Part shown: positions 7,350-41,728 of the stretch, piece by piece | How the letters are laid out: every line of letters starts with the position of its first letter | How positions within the stretch are numbered: position 1 is the first letter of the stretch | Assembly: GCA_023150835.1 (NCBI GenBank) | Contig: JAKLKB010000052.1 | Coordinates: 1-41,967 of the forward strand | Length of the DNA stretch: 41,967 nucleotides | Source of the DNA: Myxococcota bacterium | GTDB taxonomy: Bacteria > Myxococcota_C > UBA6777 | Reading direction: 5' to 3' | Position numbers and translations under genes: made by a program | The notes under the pieces: model-generated | What the model was told of the DNA's origin: nothing | Database searches by the model: none | The model's input: only the letters and a program-made list of their open reading frames with translations

Positions 7350-7434
7350 TAGGATGTGCGCGACTTCGGGAGAGAGGTGAAAGGAGGGGGTACAAAACGC
7401 GGGCATCATGCAGAGGGCACAGCAAAGAAGAGTC

Positions 7435-7497
7435 CACGGAAAGCACGGAAAGCACGGAAAGCACGGAAAGCACGGAAAACACGGAAAACACGGCGGC
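7435..7497. repeat. 9-bp tandem array
   Basis: Six consecutive copies of CACGGAAAG/CACGGAAAA start at 7435, followed by a degenerate seventh, CACGGCGGC. It looks like a slippage-prone microsatellite-like tract located about 90 bp after the collagen-like gene. Confidence 0.9.
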
Positions 7498-7673
7498 AGG
7501 GTTTTTCTGTTCGCTCGGGCATTTTGCCTTGCTGTCCTTTTGCCTTGCAGCGAGGCCTCGCGAGCATCGCAGGGCGAGGGGATGCCCGATGGGCAGGGGT
7601 GCGGGTGATACGACAAGCCCCCCGTCAGATTCCCTCCGATGGTTGGGCTTTACAGACGATGTGTCCGAGTGTT

Positions 7674-8017
7674 ATACGAAATCCGCCCGTTGTGTAATCG
7701 TAAAGATGTAGGGGCAGCCCCCTGTGGCTGCCCTATAATCGGTCGTTTACGTACTCTCCGTTGTGTACATATCGCTCGGGTATCGTATTCGCCTCCTGTG
7801 GCTGCCCTATAATCGGTCGTTTACGTACTCTCCGTTGCGTATATGTCGCTCGGATATCGTATTCGCCCGCTGTGGCTGCCCTATAATCGGTCGTTTACGT
7901 ACTCTCCGTTGTGTACACGTCGCTCGGATATCGTATTCGCCTCCTGTGGCTGCCCTATAATCGGTCGTTTACGTACTCTCCGTTGTGTACACGTCGCTCG
8001 GATATCGTATTCGCCGC
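7674..8017. repeat. Family A element expanded as 74-bp tandem array
   Basis: A family A left half (ATACGAAATCCGCC, then GTAGGGGCAGCCCC) runs into its right half, which is then repeated head to tail. The segment beginning CTGTGGCTGCCCTATAATCG starts at 7722, 7796, 7870 and 7944, exactly 74 bp apart, and each copy ends in a terminus TATCGTATTCGCC. Only the distal portion of the element is amplified, so the expansion happened after insertion, probably by slippage or unequal crossing-over. Confidence 0.9.
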
Positions 8018-8036
8018 ATATGGTGCCTCGACATCA

Positions 8037-8161
8037 TAAAACCCCCCGTGTTCGTGGAGGTTCAAGCGGCACAGACGCTTTTCAAACCAGCGTCTGTCCG
8101 CCCCGCCAAAACGGGGTCAAGGGGCCAACGGTCCCTTGTGGGGCGTGGGGTGAAACCCCAC
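8037..8161. repeat. Family B structured repeat
   Basis: This is the second near-complete family B copy. Stems are ACAGACGC/GCGTCTGT (8071-8078/8090-8097), CAAGGGGCC/GGTCCCTTG (8118-8126/8130-8138) and GTGGGG/CCCCAC (8145-8150/8156-8161), with CCCCGTG near the left able to pair with ACGGGG at 8111-8116. The order of stems is the same as at 4682. Confidence 0.75.
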
Positions 8162-8274
8162 AAAAACAAGCCCACAAAAACAAATCCCAAACGGGACGGG
8201 GAAAAGAAAGCACCAAGGGAGAGAGGCGAAAGGAGGGGGAAAAGCGAGAAGGCGAGCAAAGCAGGGGGAGGAGA

Positions 8275-8988
8275 TTATTTGGGGAGACAAGCACCGAAGC
8301 CGGAAGCAAGGCGCTTACAGAGGGTGTTGGCTTTGATGGACTGACAGTTTTTGACGTTGGTGGCTTCGTCATCAGCGGGGATGCACTCAGGTTCGCAAGT
8401 GCCGACGCTTCCAGAACCACGGACATCGACGCAGATCAAGCCCGTGTCGCAACCGCCGTAGCGGATCAAGCATTGCGCGCCTTGGGGGTGGCGGATGACG
8501 GCTTTGTAGCTACCGCTGCCGTAAAGCTGGCCGGGGATGTAGATGCAATATCCAACCGTTTTGCCGTCGCTGGTGCTCAACTCAAGGCAGTTTTCAGGGA
8601 GCAAACAATCGGGGTTTTGGATATCGCCCGTCCCTTTTTTGGGATCGCAAGGATAGAAGCAAAGTGCGTCTCCAAGGAGGTTTTGGCACGACTGCTCGCC
8701 CGACTGGGGAGTGATCCGCCCGCTGCAATCGGCGCTACCCGTGCAGGGAGAAAGATGGGTGACGGGAACGTATTTGGGGGGCGTTCCTGTGGCGTAGGGT
8801 TTGGGGAAAGGATCGTAATCTTTGCCTTCGGGGCGTTTGGCTTCGGGACGATCTTCGGGATTGAGGGGTCCGTCGACGGTGCCGGGGGGTTTGCTTGGGT
8901 CACCACAGGCACCGAATCCAACGGCGGCGATCATCAACATAGCTGCGAGCAAGATCGCACGGTGCCAGAGGGAGAGAAGATTTCGCAT
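8275..8988 (-). CDS. Cys-rich secreted lipoprotein of unknown function
   Basis: The 237-residue product has a signal peptide whose hydrophobic core ends in GFGAC near residue 28, a plausible though not ideal lipobox. After a Pro-rich linker, about a dozen Cys residues are spread over the remaining 160 residues in pairs (PCTGSADC, LCFYPCD, DCLLPENC, GCDTGLIC), suggesting a small disulfide-stabilised extracytoplasmic domain. Comparable Cys-rich lipoproteins are common in myxobacteria, but I assign no function. The ATG at 8988 follows GGAG by ten bases. The gene lies downstream of the two metalloproteases on the same strand but behind a terminator hairpin, so it is probably transcribed separately. 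Confidence 0.75.
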   Translation of the reverse strand: MRNLLSLWHRAILLAAMLMIAAVGFGACGDPSKPPGTVDGPLNPEDRPEAKRPEGKDYDPFPKPYATGTPPKYVPVTHLSPCTGSADCSGRITPQSGEQSCQNLLGDALCFYPCDPKKGTGDIQNPDCLLPENCLELSTSDGKTVGYCIYIPGQLYGSGSYKAVIRHPQGAQCLIRYGGCDTGLICVDVRGSGSVGTCEPECIPADDEATNVKNCQSIKANTLCKRLASGFGACLPK

Positions 8989-9049
8989 ACTTGCTTGGCT
9001 CCTTATACATTTCGGAAACTGGCCTGTCTGGGAGACAGGGGCAAAAACG

Positions 9050-9082
9050 CCAAAAGAGGCCCTTTGCGAGAGCCTCTTTTGG
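9050..9082 (-). terminator. Rho-independent terminator for the metalloprotease gene
   Basis: A perfect 11-bp stem CCAAAAGAGGC/GCCTCTTTTGG (9050-9060/9072-9082) has an 11-base loop. Read on the minus strand it follows the stop at 9100 and is followed by CG and TTTTT, which fits an intrinsic terminator. Confidence 0.85.
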
Positions 9083-9099
9083 TGGAAGGCGGGTACAGA

Positions 9100-12000
9100 T
9101 TATTCGTAGAAGACTTGGACGTAGCGCTTCATCATGATGACCACAGTCTCAAGCTGGCGAAGCTCGGCTTCTTTTTCTTGAAGTTCGGCTTGGATCACAG
9201 CAGAGGTGGGTTGTGCAGCGCGAAGCACCTTGATCTTTTCGGCCAGCTCGCGACCGCGAGACACCAACTTGTAAGCGATGCTCTTTTGGTCGTTGGTTTG
9301 GACGGCAAAGTAGGTGCGTGTACCAGCGGCGTTGGTGAATTGGACGGTATCAGCGCCTTGAGGAGGGGTCCAAGCGGAGCCGTTGCCGGTGACACCGACG
9401 GTCATGTAATGGGTGTAGGTGTTTCCGAAGAGACCGCTGTTGAGTTCGGCCATCGCGATAAACATCCCGAAGTATTGGAGCAACGGGTGCCAGTTGGGTG
9501 CGATGGTCTTGTCGCCGTAGGTCATGGAGTATTTCTTCTCGAATTGGCCGGAGATAGCGCCTGCATAGATGTTGTGAACGTCATCTTTGGAGAAGAAGTC
9601 AGAGAAGTTCACGAAGAAGAAGTCGAGGCGGTTGACGTTGAGGCCCCAGTCTCGGATCGCAAGCGTGAGGAGCGCGATGTATTTGTCATACATGGTTCCG
9701 ATGCGATCAAAGCGGTACATCCCGAGGCCCATCTCATCTTGTTGGAGCTTGCTGTAGAAGTATCGGCCTACACCGACGGGGACATCCAACGGATTGGTTT
9801 TGTTGGGATCAGCGGAGGGGATGTAGCCGTTGGTTTCGGCGTTGAGGACGTGACGACCGGGTTCGGGGGTGGAGATCACGCGGTTAATAAAGGAGAGGCC
9901 GCGTTGGATGGCAGCGAGTTGGTTAAAGTATTCGGGGGAGCCTTGGAAGGCGTTTTCGTTGATGGTGCGGAAGATCCAGTTTTGGAAGAAGTCTGAGACC
10001 ACACGGAATTGATCGATGCGTGCGCCCAAGTACCAGCCACCAAGACGCCAGAAACGACGGCCTCGGTTCCAGTTGCTCAAGGGATAGTTTCCGTCGTAGC
10101 GACGGATCATGTTGTCGACGATCTCCATCGGATTGGAACCCGAGTCAAAACGGTTGCAATAGGGGCTTTGTCCGACGAGTTCATCCGAGCAGAAGCGGTA
10201 GTAGTGACGGCGCAGCGGCAAGGTGTCGAGCAAGATGTAGGGGATACCATCGCTGGTCGGCAAAGAGCCGGGGGGACGAACACCCAACAAGCCGTGAACC
10301 TTCATCAGCTCATCGCGATCGCTGACATCATCGACGGTCAGGCGAAGGATCGAGACGGGTTCACCGCCTTTTGCGGGGATACCTTTGGCTTCAAACAGGA
10401 CTTGGCTGGCATCCATGATCTTCATGGCGGGGACATCTTGACCTGTGACGGTCTTTTGGCCCTTCCAGAAAGAAGCGTCGAAAGTCGCGTCAGCGTCGGC
10501 TTTGATCTCGTTTCGGGTGATGCGGATATCGCTGAACATATCCTTGTAGATACCGGTTTTGGCGGATTGGATCTGCTTCTCGATATCAGCGAAGTAAGTG
10601 GCAAGGTTGCTGCGGCTGAGGTTAAGGTTTTCATCGGAGATCTCAAGGCGTGAGCCGTAGCCGTACATGATGGCGGCATGGTCATATTTGCCGATGCCGA
10701 CGACATCGCCATAGCGCTCGCCGTGATAGTCCATGATCGAGGAGTACATATAGAACCAGCGATGACGGTTGTCGCCATCTTCGCCCGGGACGTTTTCGCC
10801 CTGCTTGGCTTTGAGTTCGTTGTAATCTTTGAAGTAGTTGGGTTCATCGGCAGAGGCTTCAAAGTTGTGACGAAGGCCGAGGGTGTGGCCGATCTCGTGT
10901 GCTTGCGTACCGTAGAAGATGTAGCGTTCGAGTTTAACGATCAGCTCTTCACGCGAGATCTTCTCTTTTTCGACGGCTTTGACGAACTTGGTCATTGCGG
11001 GATCGACGTAGGAAGCGAGATAGATGTTGTGTTTGTTGAGGATGCGCTCTTCTTCAAAGAGCTTGTTCAACATGGAGAGTCGGCCAAAGTTGGAGGGGTT
11101 CATGTAGGAAGCAAGCATCTGCTCGACATGCTCGTTGGGCATCTTTTGGAGATCGAGAGCGTTGGCGTTGGGGAAGCTAGAGCGAAGGAGTTCTTCGGGG
11201 ATCATGGCCCAACGCAAGGAGGGTTCTTTGTCGAGGCGCATCAAGCGTTCTTGGATCTGAGCGCGGTCGAGGTTGCGGAGTTTGTGGATGCGCTCTTTGA
11301 AGACGGGGCTTGCGACGAATTGATGGGCTTGATCGAGATCGAAGCCTTGGAAGGCAGGGGCCATGATGGGTTGGTTGTCTTTGACGATCAAAGGTTGGCG
11401 CTTGGTGCCGTCGGGATTGAGATTGTTGACGATATCGAGGTAGTCTTTACCGTTGCGCAAGTCGTCATCGCTGTAGGCCCCGCGCACCATGTCATAGAGA
11501 AGTAAGAAGCGGTTGGCGACTTGTTTGACCGCACCACCGTAGACATAAGCTGCGGAGGAGATGATCTCGCCCGTATCAGGATCGGCAAAGCTCGGGCCAT
11601 AGCCAAGAAGGCCAAAGGAGATCGGTTCGCTGACCCAGTAAAAGAACTTGTAGCGGACATCGCCGATCTCGCGGCGTTGTCCTTTGGGGAGGCCATGATC
11701 GTTGGCGCGCAAGACGACGACGCGGTCGTTTGGATCGGAGCGATTGGTGGCGCGTTTGAAGGCGACGTTCCATTCGTCCATGATCTGGTAGGCGAAACCT
11801 TCCATATTTTTCGGGAAGTCGGGGGACATATAGTACACGATCTGGGAAGGCTTGCGTTGATCTTCGAGGGTATTGTTGGCTTTGTAGCTATCGAGTTCGG
11901 CTTGGGTGGCGACGTTGTGACGGTTGGTGAGGTATTGGTAGCTCCAGTCCGCAAGGCCACGATCGGGGTTGTATTGGAGGATGGTGGTACGGAAGAAGCC

Positions 12001-28829: not shown

Positions 28830-28850
28830 ACTCCACAGGAGGCTTTTTTG

Positions 28851-30059
28851 ATGAAACGGTTGACCGATCAAGAGTTGCTCGATCTCCTTGATGACACCGA
28901 GTCTGATCGCGCCGAGCGCAAACAATCCTTCAAAGGCGACACTCCCAGCAAAAGCAGGCAAGCCGTCTGTGCATTTGCCAACGACCTACCCAACCACAAC
29001 GAACCCGGTATCCTCTTTGTGGGCGTAAGAGACGACGGTACCCCTTCACACGAACCGATCACGGATAGGTTGTTGCAATCGTTGGCCGATATGAAAACAG
29101 ACGGCAACATCCTACCGATGCCTGTGATCTCTGTCGAAAAGCGCCTATTAAAAGGGGCCGAGATGGCTGTTGTTGTCGTCATGCCCTCCGATATGCCGCC
29201 CGTCAAGTTCGAGGGACGCATCTGGATCCGCACCGGCCCACGAAGAGCCATCGCCAACGAGCAAGAAGAACGGATCTTGATTGAAAAACGCCGTTATAAA
29301 AATCTGCCGTTTGATCTCTATCCTATCCCAACCGCCCACATCACCGATCTTTCGCGTGTGATCTTTGAAGCTGAATTTCTCCCTGCTGCGTTTGCTTCCG
29401 ATGTATTAGAAGAAAATGGTCGGAGTTACGAAGAGCGTTTGGCTTCTTGCAAGATGATCGTGTCGCCGACAGACACGACACCAACGGTTCTTGGGTTGCT
29501 TGCCTTGGGCAAGAGTCCACAAGATTTTCTGCGTGGCGCGTCTATCCAATTTCTTCGTATCGACGGAATCCATCTCGAAGATCCTGTCGTAGACGAAGAA
29601 GAGATGGGAGGTGCGGTCGTGGAGATGTTGCGTCGCGTTGAAGAGAAATTACGCGCCCACAACCGAAGCGCCGTCGATGTGACCTCCAACGCAACACACG
29701 AGATCGAGCACCCATATCCGATGGCGGCGCTTTTGCAGATCGTCTACAATGCCGTCTTTCACCGAACCTACGAGCGAACGAATGCCCCGATCCGTGTCTA
29801 TTGGTTCAATGATCGGATCGAAGTGAATAGCCCCGGTGGGCCCTACGGAAACGTCACCCCAGAAAACTTTGGTCAGCCGGGTGTCACCGATTATCGCAAT
29901 CCAAATATCGGGGATATCCTAAAGACTTTTGGCTTTATCCAAGGATTTGGTCGTGGGATCGCCATCGCCCGCAAAGAGATGCAGAAGAATGGCAACCCAC
30001 CCATCGAGTTCCAGACCAACCAAAGCCTTGTCTTGTGTACGTTAAGGAAAAAGCCTTGA
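28851..30059 (+). CDS. AlbA_2 / GHKL-ATPase-like putative transcriptional regulator
   Basis: A 402-residue cytoplasmic protein. The N-terminal half is an AlbA_2 (Schlafen AlbA_2-type) domain: ERKQSF, VCAFANDLPN, GILFVGVRDDG and GRIWIRTGPRRAIA. The C-terminal half is an HATPase_c_4 (GHKL-like) domain with QIVYNAVFHRTYERTNAPIR, DRIEVNSPGG and GFGRGI. Proteins with this pair are annotated as putative DNA-binding or ATP-dependent regulators and occur near defence genes. The ATG at 28851 has AGGAGG eight bases upstream; a TTG at 28848 is also possible. Its stop overlaps the ParA-like gene start (TTGA), so the two are translationally coupled. The function of the pair is unknown. Confidence 0.85.
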   Translation: MKRLTDQELLDLLDDTESDRAERKQSFKGDTPSKSRQAVCAFANDLPNHNEPGILFVGVRDDGTPSHEPITDRLLQSLADMKTDGNILPMPVISVEKRLLKGAEMAVVVVMPSDMPPVKFEGRIWIRTGPRRAIANEQEERILIEKRRYKNLPFDLYPIPTAHITDLSRVIFEAEFLPAAFASDVLEENGRSYEERLASCKMIVSPTDTTPTVLGLLALGKSPQDFLRGASIQFLRIDGIHLEDPVVDEEEMGGAVVEMLRRVEEKLRAHNRSAVDVTSNATHEIEHPYPMAALLQIVYNAVFHRTYERTNAPIRVYWFNDRIEVNSPGGPYGNVTPENFGQPGVTDYRNPNIGDILKTFGFIQGFGRGIAIARKEMQKNGNPPIEFQTNQSLVLCTLRKKP

Positions 30060-31084
30060 GCGAAAAACCACCCGTCTTAACCTTTTTCAATAACAAAGGA
30101 GGCGTGGGGAAAACCTTGCTGCTCTATCACCTTGCTTGGATGTACGCGAGCCTACACAAGCGAGTTCTGGCAGTCGATCTTGATCCACAATCGAACCTCA
30201 CGGCGTTGTTCCTCAAAGAAGACGCCATCGAAGAGCTTTGGGAGGGAGGGCAAGCAGGGGCAACCGTCTTTCGTGCGATCGAGCCGCTTATGGGGGGGGG
30301 AGGTATCGTTTCGCCTGTGGTGCAAAAGATCACTCCTTCTCTTTATCTCTTGCCCGGCGATGTTGCGCTTTCAAGGTTTGAAGAAACGCTCTCCTCTGCG
30401 TGGCCTGATAGCATGGGTGATCAGAATCTCTATCGCCCGATGCGAGCGCTTTCGGCGTTTTGGCAAGTGATACAGAGCGGGGCAAAGCAGATCGCCGCCG
30501 ATATCGTCTTGGTGGATGTCGGCCCCAATCTGGGGGCGATCAACCGATGCGCTTTGATCGCAACGGACTTTGTGCTCCTTCCTTTGGGGGCGGACTTGTT
30601 TTCCCTTCAAGCTCTGAAAAACCTTGGCCCAACCCTTCGGACATGGCGAAGCCTTTGGCACAAACGCCGCGAAAACTGGTCATCTCGTTCAGAAGCTGCT
30701 CAACATCCAGAGATGGAACTCCCCCAAGGATCGATGCAGGTCGTGGGGTATGTTTGCCAGCAGTACGGGATCCGTTTGGAACGTCCCGTGGTGGCCTACG
30801 AAAAGTGGGCCAATCGTATCCCCGACGCCTACCGAGAAACGGTTCTCGATCAAGAGGCGATCCACGGTCTCCACCCACCCGATGATCCCGAATGTCTCGC
30901 TGTCGTGAAACATTATCGCAGCCTCGTTTCGATGGGCCAAGAACACCACAAACCCATCTTTTCACTCACTTCGGCAGATGGGGCCATCGGCTCCCACGCA
31001 AATGCCGTTCAAAGCGCGAAACACGACTTCAAAGAGTTGGCCCGCAAGATCGCCAACAAGATATCTCTGCCGATGGCCAAATAA
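30056..31084 (+). CDS. ParA/MinD-type ATPase coupled to the AlbA_2 protein
   Basis: A 342-residue ParA-superfamily ATPase. Deviant Walker A NNKGGVGKT is at about residues 15-23, VDLDPQSNLT follows (switch region), and the Walker B-like segment ILVDVGPNLGAINR is near 150. There is no ParB gene next to it. The protein is longer than a minimal ParA, with a C-terminal helical extension. A TTG start at 30056 overlaps the upstream stop (TTGA) and has AAGGA seven bases upstream. The stop codon is overlapped by a family A repeat. Possible roles are positioning or an ATP-dependent partner of the AlbA_2/GHKL protein, possibly in defence; both are inference. Confidence 0.88.
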   Translation: MSEKPPVLTFFNNKGGVGKTLLLYHLAWMYASLHKRVLAVDLDPQSNLTALFLKEDAIEELWEGGQAGATVFRAIEPLMGGGGIVSPVVQKITPSLYLLPGDVALSRFEETLSSAWPDSMGDQNLYRPMRALSAFWQVIQSGAKQIAADIVLVDVGPNLGAINRCALIATDFVLLPLGADLFSLQALKNLGPTLRTWRSLWHKRRENWSSRSEAAQHPEMELPQGSMQVVGYVCQQYGIRLERPVVAYEKWANRIPDAYRETVLDQEAIHGLHPPDDPECLAVVKHYRSLVSMGQEHHKPIFSLTSADGAIGSHANAVQSAKHDFKELARKIANKISLPMAK

Positions 31085-31141
31085 TACGAGATCCGCCCAT
31101 CGTGTGATCGTAAAAGCGTAGGGCAGACAGGTGTGACTGCC
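31083..31141. repeat. Family A repeat, half copy at the ParA-like stop codon
   Basis: The element begins ATACGAGATCCGCCC at 31084, overlapping the TAA stop (31082-31084), and continues through TCGTAAAAGCGTAGGGCAG into a hairpin GGCAGACA...TGACTGCC. The distal half is missing. The same hairpin variant occurs at about 41841. Confidence 0.75.
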
Positions 31142-31865: not shown

Positions 31866-32027
31866 CTGTTCGGCATCCTTTCTTGTGCAAGGAGAGAAGT
31901 GACTTGGGGTGGTGGTTCTTGTTCAGCAGGTCGTATCACAAGCTCTCTTTGTTGAAAAGGGGGGATCGTTTTCGTATGGATGAAGACTTGCGCGGTGGAA
32001 GGGTGTTGTGGGGGCGTTCTGGCCTCG

Positions 32028-32298
32028 GATGGGCTGTCTGGAAAAGCAAAGAGCGTATTCTGGTTTCGGATGGGCTGTCTGGAAAGTCAAACAGCGTATT
32101 CGGGTTTCGGATAAGCTGTCTGGAAAGTCAAACAGCGTATTCGGGTTTCGGATAAGCTGTCTGGAAAGTCAAACAGCGTATTCGGGTTTCGGATAAGCTG
32201 TCTGGAAAGTCAAACAGCTTATTCGGGTTTCGGATGGGCTGTCTGGAAAGTCAAACAGCTTATTCGGGTTTCGGATGGGCTGTCTGGAAAAGCGGAGA
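32028..32298. repeat. 41-bp tandem array, six full units and a partial
   Basis: Units begin at 32028, 32069, 32110, 32151, 32192 and 32233, with a truncated seventh at 32274. The consensus starts GATAAGCTGTCTGGAAAGTC and ends ATTCGGGTTTCG. The first, sixth and seventh carry GATGGG in place of GATAAG. The period is not a multiple of three, so any reading frame shifts at each unit and the array is non-coding. There are no spacers. Confidence 0.92.
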
Positions 32299-32456: not shown

Positions 32457-32460
32457 GGGG

Positions 32461-32592
32461 GGCAGCCACAGGGGTTGCGATAGACACGGGGTCATTGTTG
32501 TGTCAAACGCACGTGCGTTGGGCAGCCACAGGGGTTGCGACAGACACGGGGTCATTGTTGTGTCAAACGCACGTGCGTTGGGCAGCCACAGG
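32461..32592. repeat. 60-bp tandem duplication
   Basis: Two copies (32461-32520 and 32521-32580) start GGCAGCCACAGGGGTTGCGA and end CACGTGCGTTG, differing at one base. A third copy starts at 32581 and changes after 12 bases into a family A core (GGGGGCTGCCCCTAC). CACGTG in each unit is a palindrome. Confidence 0.9.
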
Positions 32593-32709
32593 GGGCTGCC
32601 CCTACAGGGACGGGGTCATGATGGCATCCCATACCGCGCATCATCCGTTGTTTTCGTAGGAGCAGGGCTTGCCCCTGCCCAATACACCACGGTCTGTTCT
32701 GCCACGTTT

Positions 32710-32785
32710 GTTGGGGCAAACGTCCGTCGTTGGGGCAAACGTCCGTCGTTCGGGCAAACGTCCGTCGTTCGGGCAAACGTCCGTC
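32710..32785. repeat. 19-bp tandem array upstream of helicase gene
   Basis: Four exact or near-exact 19-bp units, GTTSGGGCAAACGTCCGTC, begin at 32710, 32729, 32748 and 32767; the first two have GTTGGG and the last two GTTCGG. The array lies about 140-210 bases before the helicase start and may affect its promoter spacing. Confidence 0.92.
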
Positions 32786-32922
32786 GTTCGAACATTGGCC
32801 TTTTTTGTACCCAGCGTCGAGTCCGAAGGGGGGAAGTTGAAAGCCCTCTTGCGAGAAGAATCTTTCTTGCTACACTCGGAGATATTGGAAAAGAAAACGT
32901 TGGTGAACCTGAGGACGGACAG

Positions 32923-35900
32923 ATGGAACGAACGGACTGGAGTGATTGCGAGATCTTATTTCCGCTGTTGGGTGATGCGAAGAACCAGATACGCTTGACG
33001 CTGCGATCACACAGACGGCTTTCTCAGACCCCGCTGTTTTTCCAAGAACCTCCTCCGCAAGCGTGGGCCTTTCCTGCGGCGCTTTTTTCTTTGGACAGAC
33101 AAGAGCAGCAGAGCCTTGGGCTGGACGAGTTGGCACAACGGGCCGAACAGCGTTTTGGTGTAAAGGTGGCTTGTGTTTCGCTGCGCGTTTGTTTGACAGG
33201 ACAGGCAGAGCGTTTGGGGGGATGGGTACAGGGGCTCTCTCTTGGCCAAGCCGATGTACTTTGTACGGAGCTTGGCTTGGAAGGGGGATGGTATCTGACA
33301 GAGAGCGAAGAGGCGCATCGGTTGGGGAGTGGGGAGGACGTGCTGTTTGTCCATGCGTTGCCGCGCATCGTGTTAGACCCCGAAGAGCGGATCGCAGACA
33401 ACACCGATCCCGAAAAGAGCATGGATCGGCTGCTTGAGCGGTTTTTGATGCAGTTCACCGATCTAGCCGATCAAGCGATGCCGTATGTCGCGATCGCCAC
33501 GGGGTATCTCTACAAAAAAGGTTTGGTGTACTTGCTGCGGTTGTTGGAAAACCAGCACATCCGAAAGCTGCGGTTGTTGTTTAGCGGGCGGGCAGATCGT
33601 GCAACAGCGGATCTTTTGGAACAAGTCTTTCTCTCTGAACTCGATCAACGGGGGCAATCCAGCGATGCCGATCTGCTGTATCAGGCCGTTGAAGAAGAGC
33701 GGTTGGCGATCCGCGTGTATCCGCACGCCTTTTTGCACGCAAAGCTTTATCTCGGTTGGCGATTGATCGACCGACAAGGTTTTCCACAAGGGGCGATGAT
33801 CCTTGGAAGCTCCAACGTGACGGGGCCGGGCTTGCTTCATCATGGGAATCTGGAATTAAATGCGTATGTGGATGACCGCCACACTTTGCGCTCGGTCATG
33901 GGGTGGTTTGAGGCGCGTTGGGAAGAAGCCGAAGAACCCAATGCGCTGTTGTTGCAAGCCCTTGAAAGCCGTCGAGAGATCGCCCCGCCCCCTGCTTTTG
34001 AGATCGAGGGTTTGCGTGAGGTGTGGGAGGCGGGTCGCTTGCGGAAGTTGGAACCTGCTGCGCGTTATCTGGACTTTTTGGCGCGACTGTACCGCCAACG
34101 GATCGATGTCACCCGCGTCGATATCAACGAACCCGCGTTCCCCCCAGACGATCTGCGCCGTATGCTCCCCGCCCCCGAACAAGAAAGCGGTGTGTTGGCC
34201 CTTGCACAGCGTTTGTTGCAACTACGCTTTGCGTTTTTGGCGGATAGTGTGGGGTTGGGTAAAACGGTCACTTCGCTTGGTGTGGCGTGGTATCTCTATC
34301 GACTCCAAGAGATACAAAAGGCGGTTGTGATCGCACCGCGTAAGCTTTTTGGGCAATGGGAGTCTGACCGCAAAGGCATCCGTATGCCCGAAGGCATCGT
34401 CTCTTACGAAAATCGTCATATCTTGGAACGCAAGGATGAAGCCGAGGCACTGCGGGTGCTTGCACCTTTCGATCTCTTGATCGTCGAAGAAGCCCACGAG
34501 ATCTTGCGTTCGCGCAAGAATAAGCTGTGGTCGTACCTGCGGGCGCATCTGCAAAAATATCCCAAGGCGCGGCTTTTGCTTGTGAGTGCAACACCTTGGA
34601 ACAATACCCGCGAAGATATCTTTAATTATATCTTGTTGGCTTGGCACGATGGGCGCTTGCTTTGGGAGTCGTACCCACTTTTGGGATTGCCTCCCACCCG
34701 TAAACATGTCGAATACTTTGTTGGCAAACCCGCTACCGCCGCCAAGACCTTTCTTGAGCTGGCGCGCAACGAATACCGCACGATCTTTGGTGAGACCTTT
34801 GTGCAGCGCACACGCCATCGCATTGCGCGGCTTTATCAACGACAGATCGATTTTCCCACCCGCAATGTTATCCCTTATTCGTTGCCTTCGAGTACACAAC
34901 ACGACGCCTTTTTTGGCGCTCTTGAGCGCGCTTTGGAACAGGCGTTTTTGTCGTATCGTGAGCCCTTTCGGGCGCTTCAACGTGCCGTCGTCGCCGTCCA
35001 TCCCCATCCTCCCCAAGAACTCACCGAGATCCCGATCTCCAACCTCCACCGCTCCTTTGTGATCCAGCTTTACAAGCGGGCGGAAAGCTCTTTCTTTGCG
35101 CTGGCGGTCTCTTTGCGCAACGTCCGTAGCCGCCTCATCACGTTTGAGAAAGAGTTGGTGGAGATCGCTTATACTTCCAAGACGCCACGCGATGACCTCA
35201 AGGCATGGATGGAAAAACAATATCTGCGCTTGAACCTGCTTGCGATAGAGGTGGAGGATATCGAAGAAGTCGACGAAGACTTGATGACCCCCGCTGAAAA
35301 GGCCCGTTATGGCAATCTACATGCGTTGTTTGCACAGCTTGATGACGATAGCGTAAAAGCCGCCGTCAAGCACTTGATCGAATGCGAGGTCGCACCCGAT
35401 CAAGCCCTGTTCTCCGCATTGCAAAAGCAGATCACCCTTCCTATCGAGATCCATTCTCCCAAAGGATTGTATGTGGCCGACCTGCTGCATCTTCACCACC
35501 AAAAACAACGCAAGTTTGTCTTGGTGGCGGGTTATACTGATACCGCAGTGATCAACTTTTTGCGCGCCATCGAAACCATCCCGAAAGCCCGTATCGGCCT
35601 TGCCATCGGTGGGAATGAGGCTTGGATCTATGATCCGCAAACGCATCGACCCAAGCCATTGAGCGAAAACGAATGGGAGTCCGCTCTTTCACTACCCACC
35701 AAAGAGCGTTACGCCAAGCTGCTTGTACAAGCGGGGCGCGCAAAAACAATCGAACGCTCGCGGCTTTTGCAAGCCTTTGCTCCCAAAGCCCAACGCCTCC
35801 CCGCCGCTGAACTCGCAAGTCTGGGCGGAGAAGTCGACGTCTTGGTCGGGTCGGAAGCCATCAGTGTTGGGCAGAACTTGCAAGATGCCACGTCGTTGTT

Positions 35901-37185
35901 TCAGTTGGATATGCCTTGGAACCCAATGGTGATCGAACAGCGGATCGGGCGGATTGATCGGCGAGGTGGCGGTCGTCTCAAAGATCCAGATGATCCACAC
36001 TCCCCAAAAATCGTGGATATCTTCTATTGTTGGAGCCAAAGCGCCATCGAAAACGAGATCACTCTGCGCGATAAACTCAAAACAAAAGCCGAAGCCGCCA
36101 TCCAAGACACCCACTTTGACGAACTGTTGCTTTACGAATTGCGCGATCTGATCGAAGAGATCCGCCAAAAGACAGGCGACTTCCCCGAAGATGGCGAGTA
36201 CAAGGAACAGTTGGCCGCTTTCTTCAAACAACGCCAAGAAGAATTGCTCGAAAAGCAAACCCTCCCCGAAGAGATCAGCGAACAAGCGGGTGCTTGGATG
36301 GAAGGGGTTCGCCACCTCGCAGTCTGGACAGAAACCCAACGCCTCGATCTCACGATCCCGCCGCAACCTGTAGTCGCTTGTGGCTATGCTGAGGCTTCTT
36401 CATCGGGCAGTTGGAAGATCACACTTGAACTCCAACCCTACGATGAGCGCGGTCAACGCTTGGGCTTGCCGATCTTTGAAAGCCTCTCCATCCCCGCAGA
36501 TATCCAACTCCCGCTCGAACAGGATCTGGAGGCCGTCGTGTTGTCGCTCCTCGATGGACAACAACGCCAAGCCCACCGCACCGCACCACCGCTCTCTGCC
36601 AAAGCATGGCGACTCTCCCTCGAAGCCCTTCAACAACGCCTCCGTGCTTTCCAACAAAGCTATCTCGACCAACACAACGAGCAGATCCGACAAAAGGCCG
36701 TTGCCCTCAATCAACAAAAGCGAACCAGCCCCACCGCCGCTTTTCGTTTGCTCTGCGGTAAAGCTCTCACCGCCGTCCAAAACGAGATCAAGAACAACCC
36801 CTTTTACAAGACATCCGAAGGGCGCGAACACATCCAATCCATCGGCGAAAAACTCAAGTTTTTCTTGACCCTGCTCACTCCCCCAGAAAACCACCGCGTC
36901 CTTCAAGATGCCGACGAGCGCGAGATCGAAAGCGCACTGCAATTTGTCTCTCTCCAACCAAGGCGCTTTTTGCGAGAGGACTTTGAAACCTTCTTTCTGG
37001 CGGTTGCCGGCCCTGCGTGGAGTGAAGACCTCGACCAGAAAAAGGGTCTCACTCCCTCCAACGCACAGCTTGAACTTGTGCAAGTCTCCTCAGACTTCGA
37101 TTCCACCCGCTCCATCGAACGCGCCGCCGAAGGCCGCTGGACAACCCTCTCGATCAAAGTCGTCGCGGCTGCTTTCCTCGCATGA
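32923..37185 (+). CDS. PLD-nuclease/SNF2-like helicase fusion, putative defence effector
   Basis: A 1,420-residue cytoplasmic protein. After an unrecognised N-terminal 150 residues comes a PLD (HKD) nuclease domain, about 170-320, with H272, K274 (HAKLYLG) and GSSN with N298. A superfamily 2 helicase follows: Walker A SVGLGKT with K447, a DEAH-like EEAH at 522-525, SATPW, then the C-terminal motor with SVGQNL and QRIGRIDRRG (arginine fingers near R1010/R1013). A charged helical C-terminal 380 residues has no recognised domain. The architecture suggests an ATP-dependent DNA translocase coupled to a PLD nuclease, comparable with DISARM DrmD plus DrmC in one chain. Start ATG follows GAGGA by seven bases. 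The methyltransferase gene begins 61 bases after the stop. Confidence 0.85.
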   Translation: MERTDWSDCEILFPLLGDAKNQIRLTLRSHRRLSQTPLFFQEPPPQAWAFPAALFSLDRQEQQSLGLDELAQRAEQRFGVKVACVSLRVCLTGQAERLGGWVQGLSLGQADVLCTELGLEGGWYLTESEEAHRLGSGEDVLFVHALPRIVLDPEERIADNTDPEKSMDRLLERFLMQFTDLADQAMPYVAIATGYLYKKGLVYLLRLLENQHIRKLRLLFSGRADRATADLLEQVFLSELDQRGQSSDADLLYQAVEEERLAIRVYPHAFLHAKLYLGWRLIDRQGFPQGAMILGSSNVTGPGLLHHGNLELNAYVDDRHTLRSVMGWFEARWEEAEEPNALLLQALESRREIAPPPAFEIEGLREVWEAGRLRKLEPAARYLDFLARLYRQRIDVTRVDINEPAFPPDDLRRMLPAPEQESGVLALAQRLLQLRFAFLADSVGLGKTVTSLGVAWYLYRLQEIQKAVVIAPRKLFGQWESDRKGIRMPEGIVSYENRHILERKDEAEALRVLAPFDLLIVEEAHEILRSRKNKLWSYLRAHLQKYPKARLLLVSATPWNNTREDIFNYILLAWHDGRLLWESYPLLGLPPTRKHVEYFVGKPATAAKTFLELARNEYRTIFGETFVQRTRHRIARLYQRQIDFPTRNVIPYSLPSSTQHDAFFGALERALEQAFLSYREPFRALQRAVVAVHPHPPQELTEIPISNLHRSFVIQLYKRAESSFFALAVSLRNVRSRLITFEKELVEIAYTSKTPRDDLKAWMEKQYLRLNLLAIEVEDIEEVDEDLMTPAEKARYGNLHALFAQLDDDSVKAAVKHLIECEVAPDQALFSALQKQITLPIEIHSPKGLYVADLLHLHHQKQRKFVLVAGYTDTAVINFLRAIETIPKARIGLAIGGNEAWIYDPQTHRPKPLSENEWESALSLPTKERYAKLLVQAGRAKTIERSRLLQAFAPKAQRLPAAELASLGGEVDVLVGSEAISVGQNLQDATSLFQLDMPWNPMVIEQRIGRIDRRGGGRLKDPDDPHSPKIVDIFYCWSQSAIENEITLRDKLKTKAEAAIQDTHFDELLLYELRDLIEEIRQKTGDFPEDGEYKEQLAAFFKQRQEELLEKQTLPEEISEQAGAWMEGVRHLAVWTETQRLDLTIPPQPVVACGYAEASSSGSWKITLELQPYDERGQRLGLPIFESLSIPADIQLPLEQDLEAVVLSLLDGQQRQAHRTAPPLSAKAWRLSLEALQQRLRAFQQSYLDQHNEQIRQKAVALNQQKRTSPTAAFRLLCGKALTAVQNEIKNNPFYKTSEGREHIQSIGEKLKFFLTLLTPPENHRVLQDADEREIESALQFVSLQPRRFLREDFETFFLAVAGPAWSEDLDQKKGLTPSNAQLELVQVSSDFDSTRSIERAAEGRWTTLSIKVVAAAFLA

Positions 37186-37246
37186 TCGCACACACCCTTG
37201 TTTTTCTCCGCCTGATTTGTCCCCCACGCAAAGGAGATATCTCACC

Positions 37247-40200
37247 ATGAACGCTGCCACCCAACGATTAGAACGCGCCCTCCGCTCCGAAGAATCGCTG
37301 CTCGCTTGGTTTGAAGAGCGCGGGTATGTCTTGCGAACAGACATCGCGCTGCCTCTCCCCAAAAAGCCGACCTTGCCTTTGCAAACGCTGTATTCGCCGA
37401 ACTTTCCAAAGGCTCCGCGCATCGGCTTTTCGTGGTATCCCAACTTTAGCGACCGTTCGGTCAAGGGCCAACGATTGCGGCTCTTGCAAAAGAGCGTGTT
37501 GGAGTATTGTACGGGTTTGCGACAAGATGATGCTTTTGCGAACGATGCCCCTGATCTGTTTGCGTTGGGGTGTCCTGACTTTGTGTTGTTCTTTCCACTC
37601 GAAGGGGACGAGTATGCGCGGCGTTTGCGCTTTTCTCCCAACTTGCTGCTGCGTGAAGGGACGGCGCTGCACAAACATTACAGCAGCTTTTACGCCGAAC
37701 AGATGGCGTCTTGGGCGCAAGACGACACGCCCAACGAAGAAGCGGATCTCCTCGACGAATTGGTCGGCATCGGGAAAGAAGGGCGGCTTGCGTATGATTT
37801 TCAACGGTTGTTTGTGGGCGAACAGCTAGACGAAGACTTTGTTTCGTTGATGGCGATGGAGCGCCGCGAACTGCTTTCGATCTTGTTGCGCCCCGACTTG
37901 CGGGCTGATCTCTTGATCCCGATGTTGAAGCAACTGCGCGTGGACAAAGAGGACTGGAGCAGCGTAGCACTGGCCTCCGATGGGTTTGCGCCGTTGGAAC
38001 AGCTTATCCAACGGGCCGATATCCGCCATCGCTTGATCGCTTCGGTGGATACGGTGTTGTTGCGTGTGGTCTTGTATCGTTATCTGGAAGCGCAGTTTGG
38101 CTACCAAGCGGGGGACAAAGAGAGAGAGGATTTTGCGTTCGGAGCGACCTTTGATGAGATCTTGGAGAAGACGACGGAAACAGAGGTCGAACAGATCGCG
38201 GAGATCCGTGAAAGAGCGGCGTCTTATCAAGCCGCAACGAGTGGCCCACAACCCGACACCGAAGCCACAAAGCCCCCAACCAAGGGAAAGAAAAAGAAAG
38301 GCGAGGTCGCGTCTAGCCAGCTTTCCTTGTTTGGGGATGCCGCGCCCGTCACGGTGAATCAACCCGAAGTCTTCGTCAAAGAAGTGCGCGAGCGCAACGA
38401 TTATTACCAGCGGCAGGCAGGGGGCGATCTGCATCACGGGAGTATCGCGGAGGCGGCGACGTTTCTTCAAGAATACTTGTTGACGCACCATCCCCACGGA
38501 TTCGCGGGATTGTTGGTGGTGACGCGCAGCGATCTGTATTCCTTCGCTTACGCCGACCTTGATCCTCGCGCCTTTCAACGCTTTTACGAAAACACCATCG
38601 GGACGGATATCCGCATCCGTTATCAGCCTGACGCTCAAGTCGCCCAGATCGATGTGGTGCATTGGCACCAAAACCGCAAAGAACAAGGCGCGTACTTCAC
38701 CAACGAGATCATCTGCAATTGGTTGGTGGAGCGCAGCCTTGGGGTCTTGTATGAGGCTTGGTTTCGGTCGTTTAGCGACTTTTTGTTGGGCTTTCGCAAG
38801 ATCCAACGCGGACGCATGGCGGCTTTGCGCGTACATCTGGATCGCTTGTTGGCGTGGAAGATCATGGATCCGACGATGGGGGGTGGGATCTTTTTGCGTG
38901 CAGCCTTCGAGTTCCTTTCATCCCGTCATTCCGCCATCTCCGAGATGTTGCGTGTCCACCTCCCCGAAGAAGTCCGCAAAGAGCTTTTCAAAGAATCCCC
39001 CGACCATGAATTCCCCTACCATGTCTTTCAACACGACCTCGAACAGCAAGGCGAGTGGCAGTGGTATATCTTGCTGCACATGCTCTACGGCGTCGATATC
39101 GACATCAAAGCCGTCAACATCGCCTCCAACCTCCTCACGCTCAGCGCACTGATCTACAAACCACACGGCGTTTGCTTCCCTTCCTTCATCAACACCAGCC
39201 TCAAACACGGCAACGCCTTTGTCATCCCCATCGAACCCCAACACCGTCAAACCTTCGCGACCCAATACAAACAAGAGATCCTTGACTTGCTCGCACTTCG
39301 CAAAAAACTCCGTGACCCCTTGCTCTCCCGCGAGGCGTGGCGCACTTGTCACCAACAAGCACATGCCATCACCGACCGCGTTACAAACGCCCAGATCCTC
39401 GCTTGCTACAAACACCTCTTCCCCTCCCTCTCCGACAAAGACATCCTCCAACGTGTCCGTCAAACCAGCGTCTTTCTCTACGAGATCGAATTCCCCGAAG
39501 TCTTCTTCGCGCCCGATGCCCAATGGCTTCCCTCCCCCGGCTTTGATGTCATCCTCGGAAATCCTCCGTGGGAAGAACCTGCTGCCGAGTTCAAGCACTT
39601 CCTCCCTGAGTTTGATCCTGAATATCGAGACCTCTCTCAAGCTGCCTCCAAAGTACGCGAAAGAGAATTGCTTGCCGAGCCTGTAATCGCCAAGCGTTGG
39701 GATACCTTTGTTCGATCTATCGAAGACTATAAGTTGTTATTGACTGCGGCTTGGTATCAATATCAACGTGCGGTCGTCGATGGCCGTCTGACGGGGGGAC
39801 ATTCTAACCTCTACAAATACGCCACCGAATTGACCTTCCGCTTGCTGCGTGACGGCGGTTTCGGCGCGTTGTTGCTCGATGGCGGCTTGTGGAATGATCT
39901 CTCCGCAACAGGTTTGCGAAGGATGCTTCTGGATTCGGGACGCGTAACGATTATCGCGGGATTTGTGAATCATCAGGGTATCTTCCCAGATGTCCACCGC
40001 AGTTATAAATTTGCTTGCAATGTGTTTCAAAAGGGCGGAAATACCGAGACGATCCGTGTGGTGTTTATGCGGGAGACGTTGGAGGATCTGGCGTCCTTTG
40101 ATGCGCTGGCCTTTGGTGTGGATGCTCAAGCAATCCGAAACGATCCAAGCGAAACGTACCGTATTCCTGAGATTGCGAACAAAGAACAGTGGACGTTATC

Positions 40201-41182
40201 GTTGTCTCTTTCAAAGCATGCCCGCCTTGCGGATGAGCCTTGGAATCTGGATACTCTTTCGGGTGATTTTAATGCTGGAAATCAAAGGGAGTATTTCGTT
40301 CCGAAAAAAAAGGGGTATTACCCGCTGATCCAAGGGACGCAGTTTAACTTGTTTGGTGTGCATCAAGGCTCTTTGCCGGATGCTTGGTTGGATCCGTCGA
40401 TGCAAGGAATGGGCGGATTTTTGTATGAAAAGCAAGCGGGGCGGGTGTTGAAGGCGATTGCGGATTGGTTGGATGGGCAAGGAAAGCTGAAGGGAGGCAA
40501 AGCGGAGGCGGCGTTGGATTGGGTGGCCGCACAAACGGGACGGCGCGAACTCCCCGCTGCATGGGTGCGGCTGGATTGGGAAGGCTATCGCATCGCATGG
40601 CGGAATATCACCAACCGTACGAACAAGCGCACGTTGATCGCGGCGATCCTTCCTCCACGCATCGGAGTAAGCCATGCTGCCCCAACGATCCGACCGTTCC
40701 GTTTATTCGTTCATGGAAACGAAGTTGTGTATCGGCTGCAATACCCGCTCGAACAGTTGTTGTACTTGGCGGGGGTGCTGTCGTCGTTTGCATGCGATAG
40801 TTTAGCGCGCTTGCGTATGTCAAAAACGAATATGGTTGCCAGCACGTTCACAGGATTTCATGTGCCTGTGTGGAGGGAGGGAGGCGTGCAACGTCGTGTG
40901 GCGGAGTTGACGTGCAGGCTGACGTGTTTGGGAGCGACGGAGGAGCGTCCTTGGGCGGATTATGTGGAGTTGGCGTCGGTGGTGGGGATGGATGTGGAGA
41001 GGGATGGATTGTGGGGAAAGGAAGAGCGGCGTGAAGCGGAAGCGGAGTTGAACGCATTGGTGGCGGGGTTGTATGGATTGGGTCGTGAAGAGGTGCGTTT
41101 TTTGATGAATGAGTTGTTTATGACGAAGCAACATCGGGAGGAACATGGATTGATGCGGGATGCGATCGTGGGTTGGATGTAA
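37247..41182 (+). CDS. Large N6-adenine DNA methyltransferase (PglX/DrmMI-like)
   Basis: A 1,311-residue gamma-class SAM-dependent DNA methyltransferase. Motif X-like GAYFTNEIICNWLVE precedes motif I DPTMGGGIFL (D541 to G547), and motif IV is NPPW at 772-775. An N-terminal 350-residue domain is joined by a Lys-rich linker (KKKKGEV, about 350), and the last 450 residues should include the target-recognition region. Size and order resemble the stand-alone methylases of BREX (PglX) and DISARM (DrmMI) and type ISP enzymes. It would methylate host adenines so that the partner helicase-nuclease spares self DNA; this is inferred from context. ATG at 37247 follows AAGGAG by ten bases; a longer upstream frame overlaps the helicase and is rejected. 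No separate specificity subunit is present. Confidence 0.88.
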   Translation: MNAATQRLERALRSEESLLAWFEERGYVLRTDIALPLPKKPTLPLQTLYSPNFPKAPRIGFSWYPNFSDRSVKGQRLRLLQKSVLEYCTGLRQDDAFANDAPDLFALGCPDFVLFFPLEGDEYARRLRFSPNLLLREGTALHKHYSSFYAEQMASWAQDDTPNEEADLLDELVGIGKEGRLAYDFQRLFVGEQLDEDFVSLMAMERRELLSILLRPDLRADLLIPMLKQLRVDKEDWSSVALASDGFAPLEQLIQRADIRHRLIASVDTVLLRVVLYRYLEAQFGYQAGDKEREDFAFGATFDEILEKTTETEVEQIAEIRERAASYQAATSGPQPDTEATKPPTKGKKKKGEVASSQLSLFGDAAPVTVNQPEVFVKEVRERNDYYQRQAGGDLHHGSIAEAATFLQEYLLTHHPHGFAGLLVVTRSDLYSFAYADLDPRAFQRFYENTIGTDIRIRYQPDAQVAQIDVVHWHQNRKEQGAYFTNEIICNWLVERSLGVLYEAWFRSFSDFLLGFRKIQRGRMAALRVHLDRLLAWKIMDPTMGGGIFLRAAFEFLSSRHSAISEMLRVHLPEEVRKELFKESPDHEFPYHVFQHDLEQQGEWQWYILLHMLYGVDIDIKAVNIASNLLTLSALIYKPHGVCFPSFINTSLKHGNAFVIPIEPQHRQTFATQYKQEILDLLALRKKLRDPLLSREAWRTCHQQAHAITDRVTNAQILACYKHLFPSLSDKDILQRVRQTSVFLYEIEFPEVFFAPDAQWLPSPGFDVILGNPPWEEPAAEFKHFLPEFDPEYRDLSQAASKVRERELLAEPVIAKRWDTFVRSIEDYKLLLTAAWYQYQRAVVDGRLTGGHSNLYKYATELTFRLLRDGGFGALLLDGGLWNDLSATGLRRMLLDSGRVTIIAGFVNHQGIFPDVHRSYKFACNVFQKGGNTETIRVVFMRETLEDLASFDALAFGVDAQAIRNDPSETYRIPEIANKEQWTLSLSLSKHARLADEPWNLDTLSGDFNAGNQREYFVPKKKGYYPLIQGTQFNLFGVHQGSLPDAWLDPSMQGMGGFLYEKQAGRVLKAIADWLDGQGKLKGGKAEAALDWVAAQTGRRELPAAWVRLDWEGYRIAWRNITNRTNKRTLIAAILPPRIGVSHAAPTIRPFRLFVHGNEVVYRLQYPLEQLLYLAGVLSSFACDSLARLRMSKTNMVASTFTGFHVPVWREGGVQRRVAELTCRLTCLGATEERPWADYVELASVVGMDVERDGLWGKEERREAEAELNALVAGLYGLGREEVRFLMNELFMTKQHREEHGLMRDAIVGWM

Positions 41183-41269
41183 GAGTGCGAGAGCCTTGAC
41201 CTTGTTGGGGGTGGGGCTTTAGTTTTGGAAAGCCTTTGGCGAAGGCGAATAGAGGCGAAGGAGGCAAGG

Positions 41270-41728
41270 ATGTTGGTCGAAGTTTCTTTGCAATCGGCGA
41301 GTGCAACGAGAGGTGTTTTTCATCCGCTCAAGACGGTGGAATCGCTGGCAAGGAAAGCGGAGTTGGCGAAAGCACACAAAAGCGAGAAGCGCAGCCTCCA
41401 ACGGATGGCGGAAAGAATAGAAACCTTGTGGTCTTTTTTGCAAGAGTCAGGGGTGAGACCACTTTGTTTTGCCGAAAGCGAGGAAGAATTCAGAGAACGA
41501 TTGTTGTTGTTGTACAAGGTGGTTGGCAGCGTGCTGCTCGATCTGCAAGAGGTGCTGGGCGAGGCGCAAGAGATATTTGCGAGGATCATGGAAGAGGGAG
41601 AGAGTGGGGAGTTGTGGCCAAGCGCAGAAGAATGGGCCGTAAAAGAAGGTGGCTCATGTTGTGTTTTGAGGTCTTTTTCGAAAAACGTGGTATCCTCGGG
41701 CTTCATGGCTTGTTTGCCCTTGACATGA
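41270..41728 (+). CDS. Small helical protein downstream of the methyltransferase
   Basis: A 152-residue protein, largely helical and Glu/Lys/Leu-rich (VESLARKAELAKAHKSEKRSLQRMAERIETLW, EEEFRERLLLLYKVVGSVLLDL), with a CC pair near the C-terminus. The ATG at 41270 has a perfect AAGGAGG five bases upstream, which supports real translation. It lies 87 bases after the methyltransferase on the same strand and may be a third member of the defence operon. No domain is recognised and no start-independent evidence exists, so confidence is moderate. Confidence 0.6.
   Translation: MLVEVSLQSASATRGVFHPLKTVESLARKAELAKAHKSEKRSLQRMAERIETLWSFLQESGVRPLCFAESEEEFRERLLLLYKVVGSVLLDLQEVLGEAQEIFARIMEEGESGELWPSAEEWAVKEGGSCCVLRSFSKNVVSSGFMACLPLT

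Follow-up and report, generated by a model that had tools for sequence, protein, structure and literature searches.

Translocation and cutting by PLD nuclease domains that work with superfamily 2 (SF2) motors are established for SauUSI (PMC7913695) and for CglI/NgoAVII (PMC4267653, PMC5737866). The latter are ATP-dependent restriction-modification (RM) systems with a PLD nuclease, an SF2 motor and a methyltransferase, and more than 95 of their homologues have the PLD nuclease and the ATPase fused (PMC4267653). Fusions of an HKD (PLD) nuclease with a SNF2 motor that occur together with a DUF499 ATPase are known as type-2 BR/Hma systems (PMC12839542), and archaeal cases have also been described (PMC7641849). 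In 2018, orf33/orf34 of plasmid pLd8 from Lactococcus lactis FM03P were reported as a putative RM system with class 1 DISARM-like domains in an unlike organisation (PMC6098607). Here we consider a pair of genes in a 41,967-nucleotide (nt) stretch of DNA from a Myxococcota bacterium (the window, which is contig C213 of the draft genome G000; 7.56 Mb, 93% complete). The first gene encodes a PLD nuclease fused to a SNF2-family motor (PLD-SNF2), and the second an Eco57I-family N6-adenine methyltransferase. The locus would be a variant of ATP-dependent RM, new in form and not unprecedented (PMC6098607, PMC12839542, PMC4267653). From the comparisons of sequence described below, we consider it likely that the pair would be a self-contained, two-component ATP-dependent RM system in which the methyltransferase chooses the target.

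The window pair and pLd8 orf33/orf34 are homologous, both consisting of a PLD-SNF2 protein and a IIG-like adenine methyltransferase in which no nuclease domain was found; however, the identities are 22-24%, the pLd8 genes are in the reverse order and the N-terminal extension is absent. With CglI/NgoAVII the window pair would share the ATP-dependent combination of PLD nuclease, SF2 motor and methyltransferase, and PLDc_2 and Helicase_C are over their cut-offs in the window. However, CglI/NgoAVII have three genes, with a B3 domain in the PLD subunit, a C5-cytosine methyltransferase and Z1 in the motor (PMC4267653, PMC5737866); neither the B3 nor the C5 methyltransferase family was matched in the window pair, whose methyltransferase is of the N6-adenine type with NPPW. 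SauUSI, like the window protein, has a PLD nuclease and an SF2 translocase in one polypeptide, and its PLD domains form a dimer, but it has its own recognition domain, cuts methylated DNA and lacks a methyltransferase (PMC7913695). The type-2 BR/Hma systems have the nuclease-motor fusion together with an N6 methyltransferase, but they need a DUF499 ATPase and DUF3780, and their methyltransferase is of the DUF1156/COG1743 type (PMC12839542), whereas that of the window is of the Eco57I type and gave no match to DUF1156.

Class 1 DISARM and ARMADA (PMC9142583, PMC12458937) resemble the window pair in that a SNF2/RapA-like motor is encoded beside a large adenine methyltransferase, but they need DrmA/DrmB or a YprA helicase, and their nuclease is a separate gene or lies on the YprA protein. 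No match to MZB/DUF1998 (DrmB, PF09369) was found at E <= 0.001 across G000, no DrmB is annotated beside the relatives of the pair, and the helicase is not DrmD. With regard to ARMADA, no YprA is annotated in the relatives, although YprA itself was not searched for and the window contig ends. The BREX proteins BrxC and PglZ are not in the locus of the window pair. Type ISP enzymes unite motor, nuclease, methyltransferase and recognition domain in a single chain, whereas there are two genes in all of the relatives for which both were read. As for type I, the conserved unit has no HsdS-like third gene, and PF02384 did not match the window methyltransferase. Type III systems have a Res subunit with PD-(D/E)XK and a beta-class Mod, whereas the nuclease of the window is a PLD and its ResIII match is to a generic motor domain only. 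Among the open-licence papers that were covered, we found none that gives the two genes a name as one system, reports an exchange of their recognition domain or brings the different methyltransferase partners together, and an earlier naming is possible.

The two proteins and their relatives

A sequence-only reading of the window had described two adjacent, co-directional giant genes with a set of named motifs. Both open reading frames (ORFs) are indeed on the forward strand, and all of the residues were found and are invariant in the relatives. In the PLD-SNF2 protein, PLDc_2 (aa 183-333), SNF2-rel_dom/ResIII (418-558) and Helicase_C (965-1015) are over the curated Pfam cut-offs, and the C-terminal 400 or so residues have no assigned Pfam domain. 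The PLD domain has one HxK...GSSN...E motif (H272, K274, N298 and E311); these residues and the GLGKT Walker A (K447), E523/H525, ATPWNN and QRIGRxDR are unchanged in nine relatives, at identities down to 22%. Because the motif is single, the domain is probably active as a dimer, by analogy with BfiI, SauUSI and R.NgoAVII (PMC7913695, PMC4267653). The best PADLOC matches of the protein are partial and weak (C3a139 'HKD+Snf2', 82 bits; DpdE, 79 bits), as are its NCBIfam scores against DpdE (81 bits, cut-off 500) and DrmD NF038317 (62.5 bits, cut-off 610; a local match only).

The 1,311-residue NPPW methyltransferase of the same reading is also borne out: NPPW is at aa 772 and is invariant in seven relatives, and Pfam Eco57I spans aa 612-777. 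The protein resembles the type IIG enzymes of the Alw26I-Eco31I family in the kind of methyltransferase and in its C-terminal recognition region, with 100 bits against PADLOC REase_MTase_IIG. It differs from them in that no nuclease was found in the polypeptide by Pfam (aa 1-200 are poorly resolved in the AlphaFold model) and in that its score against NCBIfam TIGR02987, 33 bits, is far under the cut-off of 353.5. Neither of the two proteins passes any NCBIfam cut-off, and in PADLOC, NCBIfam and Pfam the pair corresponds to none of the named two-gene families; such a match would have spoken against the sequence-only reading.

Methylated DNA is cut by SauUSI, itself a fusion of PLD and SF2 (PMC7913695), and the PLD-SNF2 protein might likewise be a type IV enzyme that attacks modified DNA, with the methyltransferase being mainly regulatory. 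We think this very unlikely, as profile searches matched no SRA, EVE or other modification-reader domain and a conserved, co-inherited adenine methyltransferase is a signature of protection.

The pair is a conserved, co-inherited two-gene unit that is present in several phyla and in either gene order. The survey of neighbourhoods that the sequence-only reading had proposed returned adjacent pairs in Myxococcota-like genomes, in Salinibacter and on many plasmids of Lactobacillales. Adjacent full-length pairs are present in genome G002 (identities to the two window proteins of 49-50% and 57-58%), in a Polyangiaceae metagenome-assembled genome (MAG) (40% and 47-49%) and on the Salinibacter ruber plasmid pSR76 (L033). 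On the Lactobacillales plasmids (L034-L036, L038, L128-L130 and L144-L147) the order of the genes is reversed, and they overlap slightly or are a few nt apart. A further copy is on an IMG/VR contig (L044). In another Myxococcota genome, G051, the two genes share a strand, and Septu (PtuA/PtuB) and AbiL genes are between them on the opposite strand (L122 6951-11265), as would be expected in a defence island. The two proteins have closely matching identity matrices, with a Mantel r of 0.97 for 14 pairs and of 0.96 (p ~0.002) within the Lactobacillales. Since the open frames are long and have been under selection in more than one phylum, the pair is not a product of chance.

Both genes are absent from G003 and G004, which are members of the window's own family. 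The pair is rare in the phylum of the Polyangiaceae MAG (Myxococcota), where three of the 377 sampled genomes have a full-length PLD-SNF2 match at E <= 1e-80. At the same threshold there was none in 395 genomes of the Mucilaginibacter phylum, in a search that had no positive control, and phage genomes gave no match to the PLD-SNF2 protein.

The pSR76 methyltransferase gene (L033 14057-18013) has one in-frame stop and is annotated as two hypothetical proteins, and in L. kefiranofaciens the annotation splits PLD-SNF2 into two genes. These cases would fit a decaying cassette rather than an active defence. However, most copies, including that of the window, are intact and their catalytic residues are invariant, and we consider decay extremely unlikely.

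The sequence-only reading had proposed a reduced, two- or three-gene restriction-like system. The compact two-gene layout, the fusion of the nuclease to the motor and the lack of DISARM/BREX partners are supported; 'reduced' and the third gene are not. A fragment of class 1 DISARM, ARMADA or BREX, with the remaining genes lost or off the contig, would explain the weak similarity to the DrmD, DrmMI, BrxHI and DpdE models, and the contig does stop 785 nt past the methyltransferase gene. Consequently, the absence of partner genes rests on the relatives with complete flanks, and no DISARM/BREX partner genes are annotated beside these. In G002 the genes downstream of the pair are housekeeping genes (a D-Ala-D-Ala carboxypeptidase and a leucine carboxyl methyltransferase), and neither G002 nor G005, both with the pair, gave a match to BrxC, PglZ or DUF499. 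The 12.2 kb plasmid of L. plantarum MSJK0068 (L146) has the pair and, apart from it, nothing but genes for replication, a regulator, a toxin-antitoxin pair, an integrase and hypothetical proteins. The drmA/drmB or brxC/pglZ genes that the sequence-only reading had named as evidence against itself were looked for, with no DrmB match in G000, as noted above, and with BrxC and a borderline PglZ match on contig C61 and DUF499 on contig C7 only. The helicase is nearest to PADLOC C3a139 and DpdE, not to DrmD, and the pair is widespread and self-standing. A remnant is thus largely refuted, and we give it little more than a token probability.

On three of the Lactobacillaceae plasmids, the genes immediately behind the pair are for SIR2 and an ATP-binding protein (L034 12164-15002, L128 10164-13002 and L145 9483-12321). 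These are perhaps a second defence module.

Where target specificity lies

Closely related plasmids show which part of the pair changes. The Enterococcus faecium plasmids pQL50 and pC4-1-optrA have 12 mismatches over the 2.6 kb that start 600 nt before the methyltransferase gene and run to its nt 2033, with NPPW at aa 678. About 599 mismatches follow within 1.4 kb, and this divergent block stops just before the stop codon. There are about 51 mismatches in the 3.7 kb that span the entire PLD-SNF2 gene. In the L. plantarum/paracasei plasmids, the last 160 or so residues of the methyltransferase are at about 20-60% identity and the PLD-SNF2 proteins mostly at 80-100%. In some of these pairs the divergence continues into the adjacent gene at its PLD end, where hitch-hiking is visible.

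The same pattern is present in two sister subfamilies. The Lactococcus pairs have a methyltransferase with a TaqI_C-type recognition domain. Between pJM1F and pLLUC147A, the PLD-SNF2 protein is 98-100% identical in each 50-aa bin, and the methyltransferase is about 98% identical up to aa 750 and drops to 14-22% beyond it. The Rhodococcus methyltransferase matches MmeI_Mtase, MmeI_TRD and MmeI_C, and no match to the MmeI nuclease domain was returned for it; between pRJH4 and YF3 the PLD-SNF2 protein is 90-100% identical and the C-terminal half of the methyltransferase 24-58%.

Since the motor-nuclease stays nearly constant while the recognition half of its partner is replaced, the simplest reading of these sequences is that the PLD-SNF2 protein would borrow the recognition domain of the methyltransferase, as the motor-nuclease subunits of type I and type III do. 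Alternatively, the arrangement could be type II-like, with a methyltransferase that only protects and a PLD-SNF2 protein that recognises a target of its own, like the B3 domain in the PLD subunit of CglI/NgoAVII, the best-studied PLD + SF2 motor RM system (PMC4267653, PMC5737866). The 400 or so unassigned C-terminal residues of the window protein leave room for this, and PF09565 (the NgoFVII PLD domain) matches the PLD-SNF2 proteins of L034, L131 and L133. However, neither B3 nor any other DNA-recognition family was matched in the window protein by Pfam-type profile searches. Furthermore, if PLD-SNF2 had its own target, each exchange of the recognition half, seen in three lineages, would leave host sites unprotected and they would be cut. 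We therefore regard a separate target for PLD-SNF2 as unlikely.

Some Lactococcus plasmids have a further arrangement. Both pJM1F and pUCCL629A have another, silent recognition-domain gene on the opposite strand, tail to tail with the methyltransferase gene and beside an Mpi-family DNA invertase. The silent gene of one of these plasmids matches the expressed domain of the other over the first half of that domain. Halves of expressed and silent domains are thus exchanged between plasmids, which suggests a phase-variable target for the Lactococcus PLD-SNF2 systems. Silent recognition-gene loci are located at L165 (NZ_CP016750.2) 5131-9936 and L131 10374-15056. Rhodococcus plasmids (L133 and L158-L161) have PLD-SNF2 and the MmeI-like methyltransferase, and a recombinase gene often comes next, on the opposite strand.

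Several observations count against a two-component RM system in which the methyltransferase chooses the target. The Enterococcus and Lactobacillus swaps are in relatives at about 24% identity or less to the window, and those of Lactococcus and Rhodococcus are in sister subfamilies with other methyltransferase types. Extra variability at the C-terminus of the methyltransferase was sought in the window's own clade and none was seen, and the Mantel test is weak in that clade alone (r 0.83, p 0.08). Genome G001 shows the PLD-SNF2 gene only, because its contig ends there, and has no close copy of the methyltransferase. The AlphaFold models are poor (mean pLDDT 50 and 59, for methyltransferase aa 1-1200 and for the C-terminal part of PLD-SNF2), and so a hidden domain is possible in the N-terminus of the former or the C-terminus of the latter.

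Surroundings in the window and the host genome

The features of the locus are listed in the table. The two genes are separated by 61 nt.

Table. Features of the PLD-SNF2/methyltransferase locus, in window coordinates
Feature	Position	Strand	Basis
R-type gene: PLD nuclease fused to SNF2-family motor, 1,420 aa	32923..37185	+	Pfam; invariant catalytic residues
PLD nuclease domain, aa 183-333	33469..33921	+	Pfam PLDc_2 and alignment
SNF2/SF2 motor: RecA1 aa 418-562 (Walker A GLGKT, EEAH, SATPWNN), long insertion, RecA2 965-1015 (QRIGRIDRR)	34174..35967	+	Pfam, alignment
AAGGAG ribosome-binding-like site, 10 nt before methyltransferase ATG	37231..37236	+	sequence read
M-S-type gene: Eco57I-family N6-adenine methyltransferase, 1,311 aa	37247..41182	+	PF07669, 39.6 bits (cut-off 25.3)
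S-adenosylmethionine-binding motif I DPTMGGGIFLR, aa 541-551	38867..38899	+	GGGxFLRxAF kept in 7 relatives
Catalytic motif IV NPPW, aa 772-775	39560..39571	+	invariant in 7 relatives
Predicted target-recognition half of methyltransferase, aa 776-1311	39572..41179	+	by position, from segments exchanged in Enterococcus/Lactobacillus/Lactococcus/Rhodococcus relatives
Small helical ORF, TTG start, judged not part of the system	41225..41728	+	no family match

The small helical ORF behind the pair had been taken as a possible third component of the system. It has no Pfam, PADLOC or NCBIfam match, tblastn found no match to it beside the pairs in G002 and the Polyangiaceae MAG, and we have dropped it. 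AlbA/Schlafen-like and ParA-like genes are present upstream at 28848-31084 (region 28832-31135), between hemH and a DUF6261 gene. They were considered as partners and rejected; they are missing at the same junction in the sister genome G001 and so represent a separate insertion. Three tandem arrays lie directly upstream of the PLD-SNF2 gene (32025-32290, 32460-32594 and 32710-32790), with units of 41, 60 and 19 nt, and a GGGCA(A/G)CC-type stretch that resembles them reappears at the right end of the window.

The window genome is close to MAGs labelled Myxococcota/Deltaproteobacteria. Its DUF499 gene on contig C7 is accompanied by HKD-SNF2 and DUF1156 methyltransferase genes of its own (L143 3409-15209; Hma, type-2 BR-like), with a TnpB-like gene adjoining. 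Thus, the Hma/type-2 BR combination is present in G000 separately, and it looks different from the window pair.

Proposed mechanism and meaning

Based on its motifs, we predict that the methyltransferase reads a target through its C-terminal recognition domain and methylates adenine there, by which the host DNA would be marked. Judging from the domain swaps in the relatives, it would also lend this domain to the PLD-SNF2 protein, which would have no specificity of its own. By comparison with homologous enzymes, an unmethylated target would then switch on the SNF2 motor; ATP-driven translocation would follow, and two PLD domains would dimerise into a single active site that cuts the foreign DNA.

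In a broader sense, the pair may belong to an unnamed class of ATP-dependent RM systems, a proposal for which we see the case as about evenly balanced. In this class one PLD-SNF2 chassis would have been paired repeatedly with nuclease-less IIG-type methyltransferases (Alw26/Eco57I-like, Eco57I+TaqI_C, MmeI-like and cyanobacterial ISP-annotated ones) and would take all of its specificity from them. The target would be changed by exchange of recognition domains, in Lactococcus by way of an invertase and an inverted silent recognition gene.

If this is true, methyltransferases that are filed as solitary type IIG enzymes would be one of the two parts of an ATP-driven restriction machine, the other being a nuclease part that lacks a family name, and annotation libraries would gain a new defence system. 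The pair would be programmable, with a fixed motor-nuclease and interchangeable recognition domains, and its target could be read directly from the methylome. For Lactobacillus, Lactococcus, Enterococcus and Rhodococcus, it would also account for a barrier to the uptake of DNA.

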